This document shows, one piece after another, positions 27,059 to 44,175 of a DNA stretch of 44,630 bases. The first letter of the stretch is position 1. Every line of letters starts with the position of its first letter. The position numbers and the translations under genes were made by a program. This DNA comes from Pirellulales bacterium (lineage in GTDB: Bacteria > Planctomycetota > Planctomycetia > Pirellulales > JADZDJ01): NCBI GenBank assembly GCA_035499655.1, contig DATJYL010000138.1, positions 1 through 44,630 on the forward strand, written 5' to 3'. The notes under the pieces are model-generated. The model searched no databases. It was not told the origin of the DNA and saw only the letters and a list, made by a program, of their open reading frames with translations.

Positions 27059-28846
27059 TTAGCGTTCCAGCTCGCGCGATTTGCGAGCAGATTTTGGCGA
27101 GCGGCCGTTGGTTTGCTTTGTGCCATTCGAAGCGCCATTAGCGCCGTTGCTGTGAGCCGCACCGTTGGAAGTTTTTCCGGTTTGGGAAGGCAAGTCCAGG
27201 GGTTGCAACCCCTGGACTTGAAAGTGGTCGGATTTCAAATCGGCCAATGAAGAATCATTCGATTTTTGCTCGCCAGCCCACTCCACGCCGAGCTTCGTTC
27301 CGAATACCCGCTTAAATAATTTGGTGCGCCGGCGGGCGCCCCACAAATCGACTTCCGGATTGAATTCGGAGTGCACCAGGAGTTCCAATTTTTTCTCGGC
27401 GTGCTTGTCAGTCCGCCCTAGCGTTACGTCTTTCACTTGTTGGCTATGGCTGCGATCTAATCCGCCGGCTAGACGCAGGATCGCGGCCAATTGTTCCACG
27501 CGGCGCTGATCTTCGGAGGGAAGCTGACGGAAATTGGCGTGCTTTTGCTTGGGACGCGCGCCGCGGTGATACCGGGCAATGTTGGCGATTAGCTCCAACT
27601 CTCGCGGGCGGAAACCGGCCAGCCGGCTGTTCAAAATCAAATGATAACTGTGCTTGTGATGTTGATCGTAATTGATCAAGTAGCCCACGTCCTGCAAGCG
27701 GGCAGCCGCTTCCAACAGCGGGCGATCGTCCGGGTTTAGGCGGAATTGCTCGGCGATTTGTTCAAAAATCCGGCCGGCCAAGCGCGCCACCTGGCGGCCA
27801 TGCGCCAATTCGTACTCACCGGTGCAAGCGGCAGCGAAGCGATTAATGGCAGCTTCTCGATCCGCCGGATTTGCGCTGGGAGCGCCCAGAGTGTTGTCGA
27901 TCATCGTCAGCAACAAACCGTCGCGCACCCCGCGGCTGTGAACTTGCAGCAAGTTGACTTTGAAGTGCCGCATCAACCGATCGACCACCGCAATGCCCGC
28001 CACGATGATGTCGGCCCGATCGGGCGCCAACCCCGGGACTTGCCGCCGGGTTTTTAACGGCATTTTGCGGAGGCGATCGAGCATGTGGCTGACTTCAGCC
28101 CGCGAGAGCAAATAGCCACGCGTCGGCAAACCGACCTGCTTGCGCGAGGCCATCATCATTTCGGCCATGCTGGTGAAGGTGCCGCCGGAGCCAATCAGGA
28201 GGTGAGGGGGAAAGAATTCGCGCTGGGCCTGCTTCTTCAGGGTACGGTCGATGGCATCGATCATCCGCTGGTAATCTTCGCCGGCCATGCCCGGCCCGTT
28301 GCCGTAAATTTCGGTGAGCCGCACCGCCCCCAACGAGGTGCTGACGATCGATTCAATGACATTGCCGCTGGCCAGCACAATCTCGGTGCTGCCGCCGCCA
28401 ATGTCGGCCACGACCACATTTTTGCCGCTGAGGTCAAAAGCCCGCTGAACGCTGTAAAACGCCAGGTGAGCTTCCAGATCGGAGCTGATGACTTCCACGT
28501 CGATGCCCACTTCGTCTTTCACGCGGCGGCAATACTCAGGCCCGTTCACAGCCTCGCGCACGGCACACGTGGCAATGGTCCTCAGCTCCGCCACTTGATA
28601 ACCGGCGGCAATTTGTTTGAACCGCCGCAAGGCTGCCAGGGTAAGCTCCACGGCCTGTGCATCGAGTGTGCCCGTGGAACTGAGGGTGCGGCCCAACCGG
28701 GTGGGCTCGCGCTCTTCGTCCAAAATTCGGTAATTGCCGCCGCGCAGCGGTTCCGCCACCATGAGCCGCACGCTGTTGGAGCCGATGTCGATCGCCGCCA
28801 GCCGGTGAGCTAATTCGGTCGACAGGAAAATTTGCTTATCGTCCAT
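27059..28846 (-). CDS. ppx: Ppx/GppA-family phosphatase (exopolyphosphatase)
   Basis: Degrades polyphosphate or hydrolyses pppGpp; sequence alone does not separate the two. The 595-aa protein has the actin-like ATPase fold: AAIDIGSNSVRLMVAE near the N-terminus, ATCAVREAVNG, then VVVADIGGGSTEIVLASG and LLIGSGGTFTSMAE. An HD-type helical domain follows (ARLQDVGYLINYDQHHKHSY, IANIARYHRGARPKQKH). After residue ~500 comes a tail that is not conserved, rich in Ser/Asn/Gly. This tail contains a 30-bp palindrome read as QVQGLQPLDL at residues 543-552. The neighbouring hppA also handles pyrophosphate, but the genes are apart and no shared operon is seen. Confidence 0.9.
   Translation of the reverse strand: MDDKQIFLSTELAHRLAAIDIGSNSVRLMVAEPLRGGNYRILDEEREPTRLGRTLSSTGTLDAQAVELTLAALRRFKQIAAGYQVAELRTIATCAVREAVNGPEYCRRVKDEVGIDVEVISSDLEAHLAFYSVQRAFDLSGKNVVVADIGGGSTEIVLASGNVIESIVSTSLGAVRLTEIYGNGPGMAGEDYQRMIDAIDRTLKKQAQREFFPPHLLIGSGGTFTSMAEMMMASRKQVGLPTRGYLLSRAEVSHMLDRLRKMPLKTRRQVPGLAPDRADIIVAGIAVVDRLMRHFKVNLLQVHSRGVRDGLLLTMIDNTLGAPSANPADREAAINRFAAACTGEYELAHGRQVARLAGRIFEQIAEQFRLNPDDRPLLEAAARLQDVGYLINYDQHHKHSYHLILNSRLAGFRPRELELIANIARYHRGARPKQKHANFRQLPSEDQRRVEQLAAILRLAGGLDRSHSQQVKDVTLGRTDKHAEKKLELLVHSEFNPEVDLWGARRRTKLFKRVFGTKLGVEWAGEQKSNDSSLADLKSDHFQVQGLQPLDLPSQTGKTSNGAAHSNGANGASNGTKQTNGRSPKSARKSRELER
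27191..27220. repeat. Perfect 30-bp palindrome inside ppx (QGLQPL element, copy 1)
   Basis: CAAGTCCAGGGGTTG (27191-27205) is followed directly by its exact reverse complement (27206-27220). It occupies ten whole codons of ppx, read QVQGLQPLDL, in the non-conserved tail. The same element with one compensated pair change occurs in recG (43497-43526). Confidence 0.95.
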
Positions 28847-30964: not shown

Positions 30965-31201
30965 CAGCATGGAATCAAGGCTGGCATCTTTAGCTAGCAT
31001 GCTTGCCCAAATGGCGGCAGTCCGCCATTTCTTTCTTGGTATTGCTTCCATCACGGGAAAGTCGCCGGAACCCTTACAGTCTGCTATAGCCCCTGTCGAT
31101 GGCTACAGATGTGTGGCTATTTTCCCTACGCGCGGAAATGTATTGCTGCCCGGAGGGGGGCCGGGTCTGTGTTTCGTCAATCCTCAGGATCCTCGCCGGT
31201 T

Positions 31202-32017
31202 ATGTGGTGCCAGAATTGCCAACAAGATGTGCCTGCCATTGCCGCCGGTGATACGGCCCGTTGTGCCCAATGCGGCCGTTTCCTGAAGCGCAACGTGTAT
31301 CCCTCTTCTCCCGAATCCGCCGCTGTAGAAATGCCCAACTGGGAAATTCGGCGGAACGCATCTTCAAACGTTGCTGCAGCAATCCCCGCCGCAATGACCG
31401 TTCAACTACACCGTGCCCTGCCGGCTTTCGAACAAGACGATTGGCTGTTGGACGAACAATTGCGAAGCTTGAAAAAACGCTTAGGTTTGTCTCTGAAGCC
31501 GGAAGCGGCACATTCTCATTCTGTGCATTCAGCAGCTCCCATTGTGCTTCGGCCGGCAACGCTTTCGAGTACCCACGTGCCAAGTTCTGCCGGCAACCAC
31601 GCCGGCAAATCTCGTCGTCGAGGTTCGCTTTTGGCATGGTGCCTGATGTCGCTGGGACTAATGGCCTTGGCCGGCGGCGGCGCCATGTTGGCGTGGTCGT
31701 TCGTGGGTCGCCGCGGCGACCTGTGGGGCATTGGGATGTCGCTGACGCTGGCGGGCCAATTCGGGCTGGTGTTGGGATTGGTGTTGCGGCTAAATCTTTT
31801 GTGGCACGCCAACCGCCGCACGGCGGAAACGCTGGAAAACGTCGATCGGCAACTGCACGAAATCAATCACGCCGCCGCACTGCTGCGCACTCCACAAGCG
31901 ACGCCCGGGCAATCGTTTTATGCCCACTCGGCAGAAGACGCCGCCCCGTATCCGCTGCTCTCCAATTTGAAGGGGCGGCTCGATCTATTTGCCGACAAAC
32001 TGTCACAGTTGCGATGA
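31202..32017 (+). CDS. Zinc-ribbon membrane protein of unknown function
   Basis: A 271-aa protein from the ATG at 31202 (MWCQNCQQDVPAIAAGDTAR, then CAQCGRFL). Two CxxC pairs form a zinc ribbon at residues 3-30. A start at 31109 would add 31 residues with no family character. A variable polar region follows. Then come two hydrophobic helices (LLAWCLMSLGLMALAGGGAM and MSLTLAGQFGLVLGLVLRLN) and a cytoplasmic-type coiled-coil tail (ETLENVDRQLHEINHAAALL). The arrangement suggests an inner-membrane protein with a soluble metal-binding head. I do not recognise a named family. It is separated from nrnA by about 240 bases. Confidence 0.65.
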   Translation: MWCQNCQQDVPAIAAGDTARCAQCGRFLKRNVYPSSPESAAVEMPNWEIRRNASSNVAAAIPAAMTVQLHRALPAFEQDDWLLDEQLRSLKKRLGLSLKPEAAHSHSVHSAAPIVLRPATLSSTHVPSSAGNHAGKSRRRGSLLAWCLMSLGLMALAGGGAMLAWSFVGRRGDLWGIGMSLTLAGQFGLVLGLVLRLNLLWHANRRTAETLENVDRQLHEINHAAALLRTPQATPGQSFYAHSAEDAAPYPLLSNLKGRLDLFADKLSQLR

Positions 32018-32065: not shown

Positions 32066-32091
32066 TGTAAAGCCGCCGATGTTATCGGCGG
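32066..32091. repeat. REP hairpin, left copy
   Basis: TGTAAAG followed by CCGCCGAT-GTT-ATCGGCGG, an 8-bp stem with a 3-base loop (stem 32073-32080 with 32084-32091). It matches the right copy at 24 of 26 positions in inverted orientation. The transposase gene lies between the two copies. Confidence 0.85.
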
Positions 32092-32113
32092 TGCGCTACC
32101 ATCGATTCCCCAT

Positions 32114-32647
32114 TCAATCGCCGCCGTAAAGAAACGGATACGGCCGGCTCACTTCTCCCCGCCGTTCATTGTGTCGTTCGATGTAGCGAATGGTGTTCCG
32201 CCAATGTGATTCATCGAACATGTAGCTGCACCAATAGTTCTTACAGAACACTGGCCCTTCGTGCTTGGTTTGGGCATGCACTTCTTTGGTCATCTGCTGG
32301 GCGAGCCACTTTGCCGTTCTCTCGATATCCATCCCCGAATATGTCAGCAGCAGATGAAGATGGGTTGACTCGATCGAGGCAGCGACAATTTTCCAAGGCG
32401 ATGACGCTGCGCAGGCGGAAATTGCTTTTTCGACCGCCGCGATCATTGCTGTGTCCAATCGCACGGGCGGCTGCTTCATTCGTTCCCGCGCCATGCGCTC
32501 GCGCACTGGATCACCGCCGTGAAGCATATGCGGTTCGATGAATCCGATCTGTTCATCCCATGCTTCCGACCAATGGCCTCTGGAATCACCCGGCAGCCAC
32601 AGACCGTAGCCGGATTTCACGTAATGGTAACCTAGGGTTCTGCCCAT
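32114..32647 (-). CDS. REP-associated tyrosine transposase (Y1, IS200-like)
   Basis: A 177-aa single-strand transposase-like protein. It has the HUH metal site STHLHLLL (H-x-H) and a following helix GMDIERTAKWLAQQMTKEVH. A C-terminal segment NYWCSYMFDESHWRNTIRYI is followed by ERHNERRG; its Tyr residues include the likely nucleophile. TnpA-REP proteins act on REP hairpins with a conserved tetranucleotide at the base of the stem. Here the gene stands between two inverted REP copies and has no second transposon gene. Length and motifs suggest an intact protein. It may be domesticated rather than mobile. Confidence 0.8.
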   Translation of the reverse strand: MGRTLGYHYVKSGYGLWLPGDSRGHWSEAWDEQIGFIEPHMLHGGDPVRERMARERMKQPPVRLDTAMIAAVEKAISACAASSPWKIVAASIESTHLHLLLTYSGMDIERTAKWLAQQMTKEVHAQTKHEGPVFCKNYWCSYMFDESHWRNTIRYIERHNERRGEVSRPYPFLYGGD

Positions 32648-32694
32648 GAAGGCAGATTAAATTGATTGGTCGAGGCGGTGTCAATTGGCGGTTC

Positions 32695-32720
32695 CCGCCG
32701 ATGCCATCGGCGGCTTTACA
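32695..32720. repeat. REP hairpin, right copy (inverted)
   Basis: CCGCCGAT-GCC-ATCGGCGG followed by CTTTACA, the inverted counterpart of the left copy. The stem is identical; the difference is confined to the 3-base loop. Conservation of the stem and of the TGTAAAG flank, with variation only in the loop, fits REP elements processed by the adjacent transposase. Confidence 0.85.
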
Positions 32721-32726
32721 ACGCGC

Positions 32727-33548
32727 TTAACTCATGCTGGCCAATCCCAGCACTTTGCGAATGGCGGTCACGGCCACCTCGCCGAATTGCCGCGCGGGGA
32801 TTTGCCAGATGGCCGGGTTCATCAGCTCGACCGAAACACAGCCACGGTAGTCGATTTCATGTAGCCGCTCCACAATGGTGAAGAGCGGAAAATCGCCATC
32901 GCCGGGAAGAATGCGGTCGCCGTCGGCGGCAAATTCGCGCGCCTGCCACACCAAATCGCACAATTGCACGTGGAATAGTTTGTCGGCGGTGAGATACGCC
33001 AAATCGGACTCTTTGCTCGGGCCTGTGAAAAAATGAAACGCATCAAGGCAGAGGCCCAGGTGCGGGCTGGCAATGGTTTCGACGAGCGCGGCGGCAGATT
33101 GCAAATTGTTGGGATACGTGGCTTTCGCCTGAAATTCCAGCGCGAGCCGCAGGCCGTGCTCGCCGGCTTTGGCGGCCGCCTGAGTTAGCGACGCTTGCAG
33201 GCGGCCGAAAGCTTGTTCGTCGAGCGGGCCGAGCACGTCGCCGGCGATAATTACTGTGCCAATTCCCAGAGTGCGGCACAGTTCCAGGCGGCGCTCGAAG
33301 TGATTCCAGTGTTCTCGCCGGGCATCGCCTTGCGAAATGAGCAGTCCGCCTTGGAAACTGGCCACCGGTGCGGACACGTTATTATTTTCCAGCAACCGCC
33401 GTGCATCGTCGACACGGTGCGATTGCAGATAAGTTTCCAGCTTCGTGAGCCAGATTTCGATCGCTCCGCAATGGCCGGCGGCGTAATCTTCGACGTCTTT
33501 TTCAAACGGCGAAGGTAGCGAACAGACTTGGCTGAGCGCAGGAAGCAT
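32727..33548 (-). CDS. Sugar phosphate isomerase/epimerase-like TIM barrel
   Basis: A 273-aa protein of the xylose-isomerase-like / AP-endonuclease-2 superfamily. Motifs include LRLALEFQAKATYPNNLQSA (Glu ligand), HLGLCLDAFHFFTGPSKESD (Asp-His ligands), LFHVQLCDLV, and a final GCVSVELMNPAIW with the last Glu. These give the usual E-D-H-E metal site. The reaction could be isomerisation or epimerisation of a sugar, inosose or related keto-acid. The specific substrate cannot be told. No sugar-transport or dehydrogenase gene stands nearby. The end lies 7 bases from the right REP copy. Confidence 0.85.
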   Translation of the reverse strand: MLPALSQVCSLPSPFEKDVEDYAAGHCGAIEIWLTKLETYLQSHRVDDARRLLENNNVSAPVASFQGGLLISQGDARREHWNHFERRLELCRTLGIGTVIIAGDVLGPLDEQAFGRLQASLTQAAAKAGEHGLRLALEFQAKATYPNNLQSAAALVETIASPHLGLCLDAFHFFTGPSKESDLAYLTADKLFHVQLCDLVWQAREFAADGDRILPGDGDFPLFTIVERLHEIDYRGCVSVELMNPAIWQIPARQFGEVAVTAIRKVLGLASMS

Positions 33549-41822: not shown

Positions 41823-44033
41823 TTAACCCACGTCGCCCAAATCGAGTGCCGCGCCGTAGCGGAACAGAACCAACTGACGCAGCCGAGTATGCTCTGGTTG
41901 CGCGAGGCCGGGATCGGCGGCGATCAACCGCCGGGCATCTTCGCGGGCTTCGGTTACCACGGCCGAATCGCGCACCAGGTCGGCCAGATAAAACGGCGAG
42001 AGGCCATGTTGGCGGGTGCCGATTAAATCGCCGGCGCCGCGCAACTGGAAATCGATTTCGGCCAGTTTGAATCCGTCGGTCGTGTCGACGAAGGCTTGCA
42101 GGCGCTGTTGGGCTTCGTCAGTCGGCTGGACTGGATCGTCGCTGCGCTCGCCGGCGAACACGCAGCAATTGCCGGGGAATTTGCCGCGGCAAACACGGCC
42201 GCGCATTTGATGGAGCTGAGCGAGCCCGAAGCGGTCGGCGCCCAAAATGGTCATCAGCGTGGCGTTGGGGACGTCGATGCCGACTTCGACGACCGAAGTG
42301 GCCACCAGCACCTGAGTGCGACCGGCGGCGAAGTCGTTCAAGGCGGCGTCTTTTTCTTCGGCGGTCATGCGGCCGTGCACCAAACCCAGGCGAAACGCTT
42401 CCAACTCGCCGTGGGCCAACTCCTCGAAGGTGGCCTGCAAATTGGCGGTGTCGACATGCGCCGATTCCTCGACCAGCGGCACAATCACGTAACCCTGCCG
42501 GCCGTCGTGCAAATGACGCCGGAAAAAATCCCACCACTTTTCGCGGTTTTCCCCTTCGGCCAAATACGTGTGCACCGGTTGCCGGCCGGGCGGACTTTCG
42601 GAAATGATCGACACGTCTAAATCGCCAAACAGCGTCATGGCCACGGTGCGGGGAATGGGGGTGGCGGTCATCACCAAATAGTGCGGATCGGCGCCGGCCT
42701 GCTTCAATGTGGCCCGTTGTCGTACGCCGAAGCGATGTTGCTCGTCGATCACGACCAAGCCCAACTGCTTGAACTGCGCGTCGCCATACACGATGGCCTG
42801 CGTGCCGATGACCAAATCGATTTCGCCCGCCGCCAGCTTTCGCAAAGTTTCTTCGCGCTCCTTCGCCGAGAGGCTGCCGCTGAGCAGGGCCATGCGCACC
42901 TGGCTGCCGGCCAGCAGTTTTTGCAGCGTCCGCAAATGTTGGCGGGCCAGCACTTCAGTCGGGGCCATCAAAGCGGCCTGACAACGATGCGCCACGGCCA
43001 ACAGCATGGCATACACGGCCACCACGGTTTTGCCGCAGCCGACGTCGCCTTGCAGCAGGCGGTTCATCGGCGTGCGGCGGCCCATGTCGGCGGCAATTTC
43101 GTCAATCGCTTTCCGCTGCTGGGCGGTCAACTCAAAGGGAAACAGCCGTGTGATGCGAGCGTCGATTTTGGCGCTGGTTTCCAGTGGTGGCGCTTGACGA
43201 CGAGTTTCTTGCACATTTCGCTTTAGCGCCATCGCCAATTGCAGCACGAACATTTCCTGGTAGATGAATCGGCGGCGCGCCTGCTGAAGCACGTCCTTAT
43301 TGGTGGGAAAATGAATTTCACGTAGCGCCGTGTGGATGGGCAGCAATTGCTGGGCCGTGAGAAACGGTTGCGGGAACGCTTCCTCCAGCAGTTCGACATA
43401 GGCATCCAGGGCCTGCTGCGTGATGTACCGTAGCCCGCTTTGCTTGAGCCCTTCGGTCAGCGAATAAACCGGCAAAATTTCGCCGCGCATTGGGCCCAAG
43501 CCCAGGGGTTGCAACCCCTGGGCTTGCGATGTTGCATCGGCTTCCCCCGTGTCGATCCACTGCACGCGGGGATGGCTCATTTCCCAGCGGCCCCCTTTCA
43601 GCCGCGGCTTGCCGGAAAGCAACACTTCTTGCCCTTGGCGAAATTTGTCGGCCATGAACGGCATGTTGAACCACAAGGCCCGCAGGTAGCGCGATTCCTG
43701 CCGCACCAGCACGCCTAAAATAGAACGGCCCGTGCCCTTGTTTCGCAAATCGATTTCCTCGACCGTGCCGCGGACGCTTTGCAGTTTGTCTTCTTCCAGG
43801 GCGTCGATGGTTCGTACATCGCTCAGGTCTTGATAATCGCGCGGAAAGTTGAACAACACGTCGGCCGCCGTGCGCAGGCCAATTCGCTCCATCAGTTTCG
43901 CCCGATCGGGTCCAACGCCTTTCAGAAACTGCACGGGGGTGGCAAGGGCTTCGATAGTCGATTTATTCGCCGCGTTCTGGGACGGGGCTGAATGATTGGT
44001 GGCGGCCGGCGAAGTGGTTGAAGTGGGGCCCAT
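41823..44033 (-). CDS. recG: ATP-dependent DNA helicase RecG
   Basis: Remodels stalled replication forks and branched DNA. I begin at the ATG at 44033 (MGPTSTTSPA); earlier in-frame ATGs at 44105 and 44093 have no better support, and no start has a clear Shine-Dalgarno. The 736-aa protein has the wedge OB-fold (RSILGVLVRQESRYLRALWF), then LPVYSLTEGLKQSGLRYITQ. Helicase motifs are LLQGDVGCGKTVVAVYAMLL (Walker A, Cys in place of the common Ser), VVIDEQHRFGVRQRATLKQ (DEQH) and MRGRVCRGKF (motif VI). A palindromic element read QAQGLQPLGL lies at residues 170-179, at the edge of the wedge domain. Confidence 0.95.
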   Translation of the reverse strand: MGPTSTTSPAATNHSAPSQNAANKSTIEALATPVQFLKGVGPDRAKLMERIGLRTAADVLFNFPRDYQDLSDVRTIDALEEDKLQSVRGTVEEIDLRNKGTGRSILGVLVRQESRYLRALWFNMPFMADKFRQGQEVLLSGKPRLKGGRWEMSHPRVQWIDTGEADATSQAQGLQPLGLGPMRGEILPVYSLTEGLKQSGLRYITQQALDAYVELLEEAFPQPFLTAQQLLPIHTALREIHFPTNKDVLQQARRRFIYQEMFVLQLAMALKRNVQETRRQAPPLETSAKIDARITRLFPFELTAQQRKAIDEIAADMGRRTPMNRLLQGDVGCGKTVVAVYAMLLAVAHRCQAALMAPTEVLARQHLRTLQKLLAGSQVRMALLSGSLSAKEREETLRKLAAGEIDLVIGTQAIVYGDAQFKQLGLVVIDEQHRFGVRQRATLKQAGADPHYLVMTATPIPRTVAMTLFGDLDVSIISESPPGRQPVHTYLAEGENREKWWDFFRRHLHDGRQGYVIVPLVEESAHVDTANLQATFEELAHGELEAFRLGLVHGRMTAEEKDAALNDFAAGRTQVLVATSVVEVGIDVPNATLMTILGADRFGLAQLHQMRGRVCRGKFPGNCCVFAGERSDDPVQPTDEAQQRLQAFVDTTDGFKLAEIDFQLRGAGDLIGTRQHGLSPFYLADLVRDSAVVTEAREDARRLIAADPGLAQPEHTRLRQLVLFRYGAALDLGDVG
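43497..43526. repeat. Perfect 30-bp palindrome inside recG (QGLQPL element, copy 2)
   Basis: CAAGCCCAGGGGTTG (43497-43511) is followed directly by its exact reverse complement (43512-43526). It spans ten whole codons, read QAQGLQPLGL on the minus strand. It differs from the ppx copy only at arm position 5 and its partner, T-A there and C-G here, so pairing is kept. Confidence 0.95.
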
Positions 44034-44175
44034 ATTGGCATTGTAGAAAAACCCAGTGGGTCGGGCAGTGGGGAGCCGGCGGCGACCGCTCATAAAGCCG
44101 GGCATGGCATGCCCGCTGCGCAAGCTCTATGCCGGCGAAACCATCGTCGGCTTCGTGCGCCATGTGCCAGCAGTT

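Follow-up and report, generated by a model that had tools for sequence, protein, structure and literature searches.

A single-copy RAYT-like unit in a Pirellulales bacterium, probably a recent arrival together with its own REP hairpins

A stretch of 44,630 nucleotides from a Pirellulales contig, analysed here at its full length (the window), carries a small transposase gene between two short inverted palindromes, and the question is whether this is a REP-transposase unit, how it came to its site and whether it supplies moving palindromes to the rest of the genome. An earlier note on this DNA had placed 26-base REPs in inverted orientation around the gene at 32114-32647, and this description proved accurate: the left and right REPs are identical at 24 of 26 positions, and both differences fall within the 3-base loop. 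The features are as follows.

32066..32091, + strand: left REP, TGTAAAG-CCGCCGAT-GTT-ATCGGCGG, with a 7-nt head, a perfect 8-bp stem and the 3-nt loop GTT
32114..32647, - strand: RAYT-like HUH/Y1 transposase gene encoding 177 aa, with HLH at H96-H98 and Y155 in the motif YIERHN
32695..32720, - strand: right REP, inverted, TGTAAAG-CCGCCGAT-GGC-ATCGGCGG, with head and stem as in the left REP and the loop GGC
32066..32720, no strand assigned: whole REP-gene-REP unit, 655 bp

Both REP heads are directed away from the transposase gene, the right REP lying 47 nt upstream of its start codon. Folded alone as single-stranded DNA, each REP forms the perfect 8-bp stem and leaves its 7-nt head unpaired on the 5' side, at -9.7 kcal/mol, an energy equalled by none of 200 shuffles. 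The REP pair is the sole pair of inverted 26-mers in the window with at least 24 matches and a separation of at most 800 bp, and no such pair occurred in 40 second-order Markov windows. The REP is also distinct from the QGLQPL palindrome, as previously noted and as comparison with CAGGGGTTGCAACCCCTG at 27197 and 43503 bears out. That near-perfect 30-31-bp palindrome (CAGGGGTTGCAACCCCTG; CAAGTCCAGGGGTTGCAACCCCTGGACTTG) has two copies in the window (27190-27220 and 43497-43527), which have no AG-type head and are unrelated to the transposase unit.

The 177-aa product scores 27.1 bits against Pfam Y1_Tnp, above the gathering score of 23, and its top NCBIfam match is REP_Tyr_transpos (E 1.4e-9), at 38 bits against a curated cut-off of 80 that is likewise not reached by relatives from planctomycetes in which the NP motif is canonical. 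With an alignment profile, solved structures of IS200-type transposases were matched at E about 1e-6, and 4er8, the structure of E. coli TnpA-REP, at E 1e-3. A structure prediction built from four sequences was of low confidence (mean pLDDT 57), and Foldseek returned 4er8 for it at a TM score of 0.40 amid unrelated matches; the prediction is given no weight here. H96-L-H98 and Y155 are unvarying in 12 homologues, and a codon test of the transposase against seven relatives gave pN/pS values of 0.25-0.38, indicating that the protein is under constraint. The gene at this locus is intact, encodes an HUH-Y1 protein under selective constraint and lies between two cognate inverted hairpins.

A Y1 domain with hairpins at both ends, together with the empty site in a congener described below, is also what an autonomous IS200/IS605-type insertion sequence would present, the two hairpins then being its left and right ends, and IS608 and ISDra2 do share with the window unit the catalytic domain family and the principle of hairpin-plus-guide recognition. 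The known ends of these elements, however, read on one strand as distinct left and right hairpins and are not inverted copies of each other, whereas here the same sequence is inverted, and same-strand end hairpins are absent. Such elements are autonomous and often multi-copy; the transposase here is present at one copy per genome and has no near-identical genomic copies, its paralogues in this genome being 31% and 21% identical, and it scores 17 bits against NCBIfam transpos_IS200, for which the cut-off is 55. We consider an insertion sequence of this type very improbable.

Homologues 60-62% identical to the transposase occur in the congener G001 (L009 and L015), others at 67-70% identity in distant Planctomycetota (L018-L021), two further close relatives (L057 and L058) came from a phylum-wide search, and more distant homologues (30-31%) lie in this genome (L007) and in G001 (L016). 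Hairpins of like layout adjoin all of these genes, with a 7-nt head ending in AG, an 8-nt arm starting with CC, a 3-nt loop and a second 8-nt arm (7+8+3+8). Across the 13 distinct REPs compared, T3, A4, A6, G7, C8 and C9 are invariant, the foot being AAAG, ATAG or TTAG among the relatives, and the stems covary: the paired fraction of stem cells is 97%, compared to 64% in shuffles, and 32 changes are two-sided, compared to 9.5. The window stem CCGCCGAT/ATCGGCGG, too, differs from the L018-L021 stem CCGGCGAT/ATCGCCGG by compensated changes. The occurrence of the same head-plus-hairpin beside the genes of distant relatives, together with these compensatory stem changes, leads us to predict that the unit works like a RAYT/REPtron. 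The orientation of the hairpins varies: the REPs nearest to L018, L020 and L021 have heads directed at the gene, and L057 lies between two doublets, of which the outermost REPs are oriented as in the window pair, so that reduction of such an arrangement to its outer REPs may have produced the window unit. The units of L018, L019 and L021 lie downstream of a tRNA-Ser/tRNA-Pro(GGG) pair (tRNA-Pro at 1232-1306, 2821-2895 and 2755-2829, respectively), which suggests a conserved location in that lineage, and the L020 transposase copy contains an in-frame stop.

The broad definition of a RAYT is an HUH-Y1 gene with inverted cognate hairpins, and inverted REP flanks have been described, as have recently arrived genes with REPs confined to their vicinity (PMC2817692). 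The layout of a REP-transposase unit that the earlier note recognised is upheld by the cognate inverted hairpins beside the closest homologues and by the empty site in G001. Shared with the RAYT/TnpA-REP systems or REPtrons (E. coli yafM, Stenotrophomonas Smal) are the Y1 domain with HUH and tyrosine, the bracketing of the gene by two inverted REPs, an AG at the end of the unpaired 5' head (of the GTAG type there) and the co-inheritance of REP and transposase. Three features set the unit apart from textbook RAYTs: its foot is AAAG (head TGTAAAG) and not GT(A/G)G, its tyrosine motif is YIERHN and not the Y---NP that is the signature of class 2 (PMC6006769), and its REP, with two exact copies, is not abundant; in addition, its score lies below the NCBIfam cut-off. 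Class 3 TnpA-Y1 proteins of Planctomycetes and Acidobacteria (PMC6006769) resemble it as planctomycete REP-type units with a non-canonical foot and a polar residue at the fifth position after the tyrosine, but carry Y----Q and a CnGA foot, compared to Y----N and AAAG in the window, which places the unit outside that class. It can also be likened to a REPIN (Bertels and Rainey, PMC3116915), two inverted REPs with a spacer, having the gene as the spacer, although this spacer is coding and 603 bp long and there is no population of copies. In the phylum-wide sample, three types of tyrosine motif occur, Y[IV]xxHN, Y---NP and Y----Q, the first having feet mostly ending in AG (AAAG, ATAG, TTAG). No earlier description of the Y[IV]xxHN type was found in the incompletely covered literature. 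A single clade of all Y----N proteins was not recovered, the unrooted tree having two label changes, and we therefore claim no single origin for them.

How the unit reached its site can be addressed by comparison with close relatives. Its neighbours are the gene at 31109-32017 and an isomerase gene at 32727-33548, and the space between them is 709 bp here (54 bp once the 655-bp unit is subtracted) and 42 bp, free of transposase, in the congener G001, which supplies the empty site in a close relative that had been proposed as a check. The isomerase of G002, from another genus of the family, likewise has no adjacent transposase. Comparison with the G001 site revealed neither an exact insertion junction nor a target duplication at the unit; as the intergenic flanks are not homologous, they give no nucleotide-level alignment across the junction. 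In the transposase tree, the window protein groups with L018-L021 (support 93/90) and the congener's L015 with L058 from another family (93/89), within a nine-member subfamily (99/99). The host gene glyS ranks the genomes in the opposite order, with identities to this genome of 94% for G001, 84% for G002 and about 54-64% for G057-G060, whereas the transposases of distant hosts (67-70%) are closer to the window protein than the congener copies are (60-62%). This conflict points to horizontal arrival of the unit with its own REPs, and the occurrence of close relatives of the transposase in 3 of 391 other genomes (of a 392-genome draw from the phylum) fits patchy horizontal spread.

Alternatively, the gene could be vertically inherited and immobile, lost by the congener, and the hairpins no more than terminators or regulators. 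RAYT genes are generally described as low-copy, with orthologues that keep their genomic position (PMC2817692, PMC6006769), and stable hairpins can terminate transcription; yet termination needs no heads, and these are conserved from unit to unit along with the stems, the isomerase of G002 also stands without the transposase, and vertical descent runs against the opposed transposase and glyS rankings. We regard this history as improbable. Differential loss of old paralogues is possible, although many losses would be needed. Horizontal arrival of the unit together with its REPs would best account for the tree, the glyS ranking and the patchiness, judged from these sequence comparisons, and the unit looks like a recent arrival. 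The congener offers a reciprocal site, at which contig C39 of G001 holds the whole L016 unit, of another REP family, between two genes, and this genome (G000) holds a lone CATAAAG REP (G000:C168:13069-13094, L051). This genome also has a second REP transposase unit, that of L007 (G000:C145), whose right flank occurs in contig C110 of G001 at 81%, starting just outside the REP; its left flank was not found in G001.

The unit had further been proposed as a candidate origin of the palindromes that move in the host genome, which at present is unsupported, the exact REP being confined to the unit. The host genome is a 97% complete draft in 244 contigs, in which repeats may be missing, and within it the exact head plus half-stem has two copies, both at the unit. 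A broader pattern with up to three mismatches gave 14 strand-hits, including the two of the unit, and the reversed-pattern control for this search gave none. About ten related hairpins lie elsewhere in the genome, one of them in a doublet within the window:

44091..44157: REP doublet of the CATAAAG family, 44091-44116 on the + strand with a degenerate partner at 44132-44157 on the - strand, an inexact relative of the unit REP

The REP of this doublet, of the form that stands next to L015 in the congener, reads CATAAAG-CCGGGCAT-GGC-ATGCCCGC, and its degenerate partner is inverted. These hairpins and the empty control for the closer pattern are what would be expected if the unit were actively supplying the dispersed CATAAAG/TGTAAAG palindromes of its host genome; however, most of the other copies have the head CATAAAG or CACAAAG and stems CCGGCGAT or CCGGGCAT, the form that adjoins the congener's L015 transposase, and most are solitary. 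Moreover, at least one related REP (L065/L046) occupies the same place in both congeners, so that it predates their split and not all REPs are recent. By their head and stem sequences, the dispersed copies appear to fit the congener's transposase family better than the window unit, and we judge an active source unlikely. In genomes G057-G060, by comparison, TGTAAAG-CCGGCGAT is the cognate form and has 8-21 strand-hits per genome, which indicates true but limited dispersal in that lineage. To the earlier question of whether copies are solitary or paired, the answer is thus divided: exact copies are paired, at the unit only, and the related ones are mostly solitary. A lack of REP copies both in this genome and around orthologous genes had been named as counter-evidence; the first half nearly holds, with almost no copies here, but the second does not, since clear REPs stand beside homologous genes elsewhere.

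A second set of repeats was set aside as a REP burst. About 38 copies beginning AACATAGCCCGACTG are internal to a MITE that is flanked by 8-bp target duplications, an element of ~80 bp with terminal inverted repeats GTAGTGGGCCAATTTG...CAAATTGTCCCACCACC and about 38 near-identical cores in G000, none of them in the window (examples are L097-L104, on contigs C21, C38, C48, C53, C64, C141, C95 and C216). Target duplications of 8-9 bp were seen in 8 of the 10 copies read. The palindrome in its interior matches the TACATAGCCC REP, of the family of the second REP transposase L007, at 25 of 26 bases, and it seems that a REP was captured and then amplified by a different kind of transposon.

We consider it likely that the locus is a single-copy RAYT/REPtron-type unit that was recently acquired horizontally along with its REPs, has hardly or not at all produced a dispersed REP population here, and would act by cutting and joining at single-stranded DNA hairpins. 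The transposase would bind the single-stranded TGTAAAG-hairpin, as E. coli TnpA-REP binds single-stranded REP and not its complement (PMC8266576), with the AAAG foot as the guide, and Y155 would cut and rejoin at a nearby dinucleotide. CT is predicted, because AAAG shares its final two guide bases, AG, with GTAG; AG in this place fits the selection of CT cut sites in the E. coli, Stenotrophomonas and Marinomonas systems (PMC8266576). The reaction would take place at a CT next to the hairpin, on the strand that displays the REP, and probably while this REP is single-stranded at a replication fork. As the REPs are inverted and one is recognisable per strand, the one-strand, two-end route of IS608 is unlikely, and a REPIN-like or per-REP cut-and-join would be the more likely course.

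The usual view of RAYTs is that of domesticated genes with a stable position and no proven mobility of their own. A wider, tentative reading, which we hold to be possible though short of probable, is that Planctomycetota own a distinct kind of REP transposase (Y[IV]xxHN with a WWAG foot) that moves between distant lineages as whole REP-gene-REP cassettes and is not fixed or domesticated. The AAAG, ATAG and TTAG feet provide a ready test of the guide model, by which the last two bases alone pick the cut site. Two congeners whose empty and filled sites are reciprocal, together with units that keep their REPs on passing between distant hosts, would offer a natural comparison for the arrival of REP transposases and for whether REPs spread afterwards.
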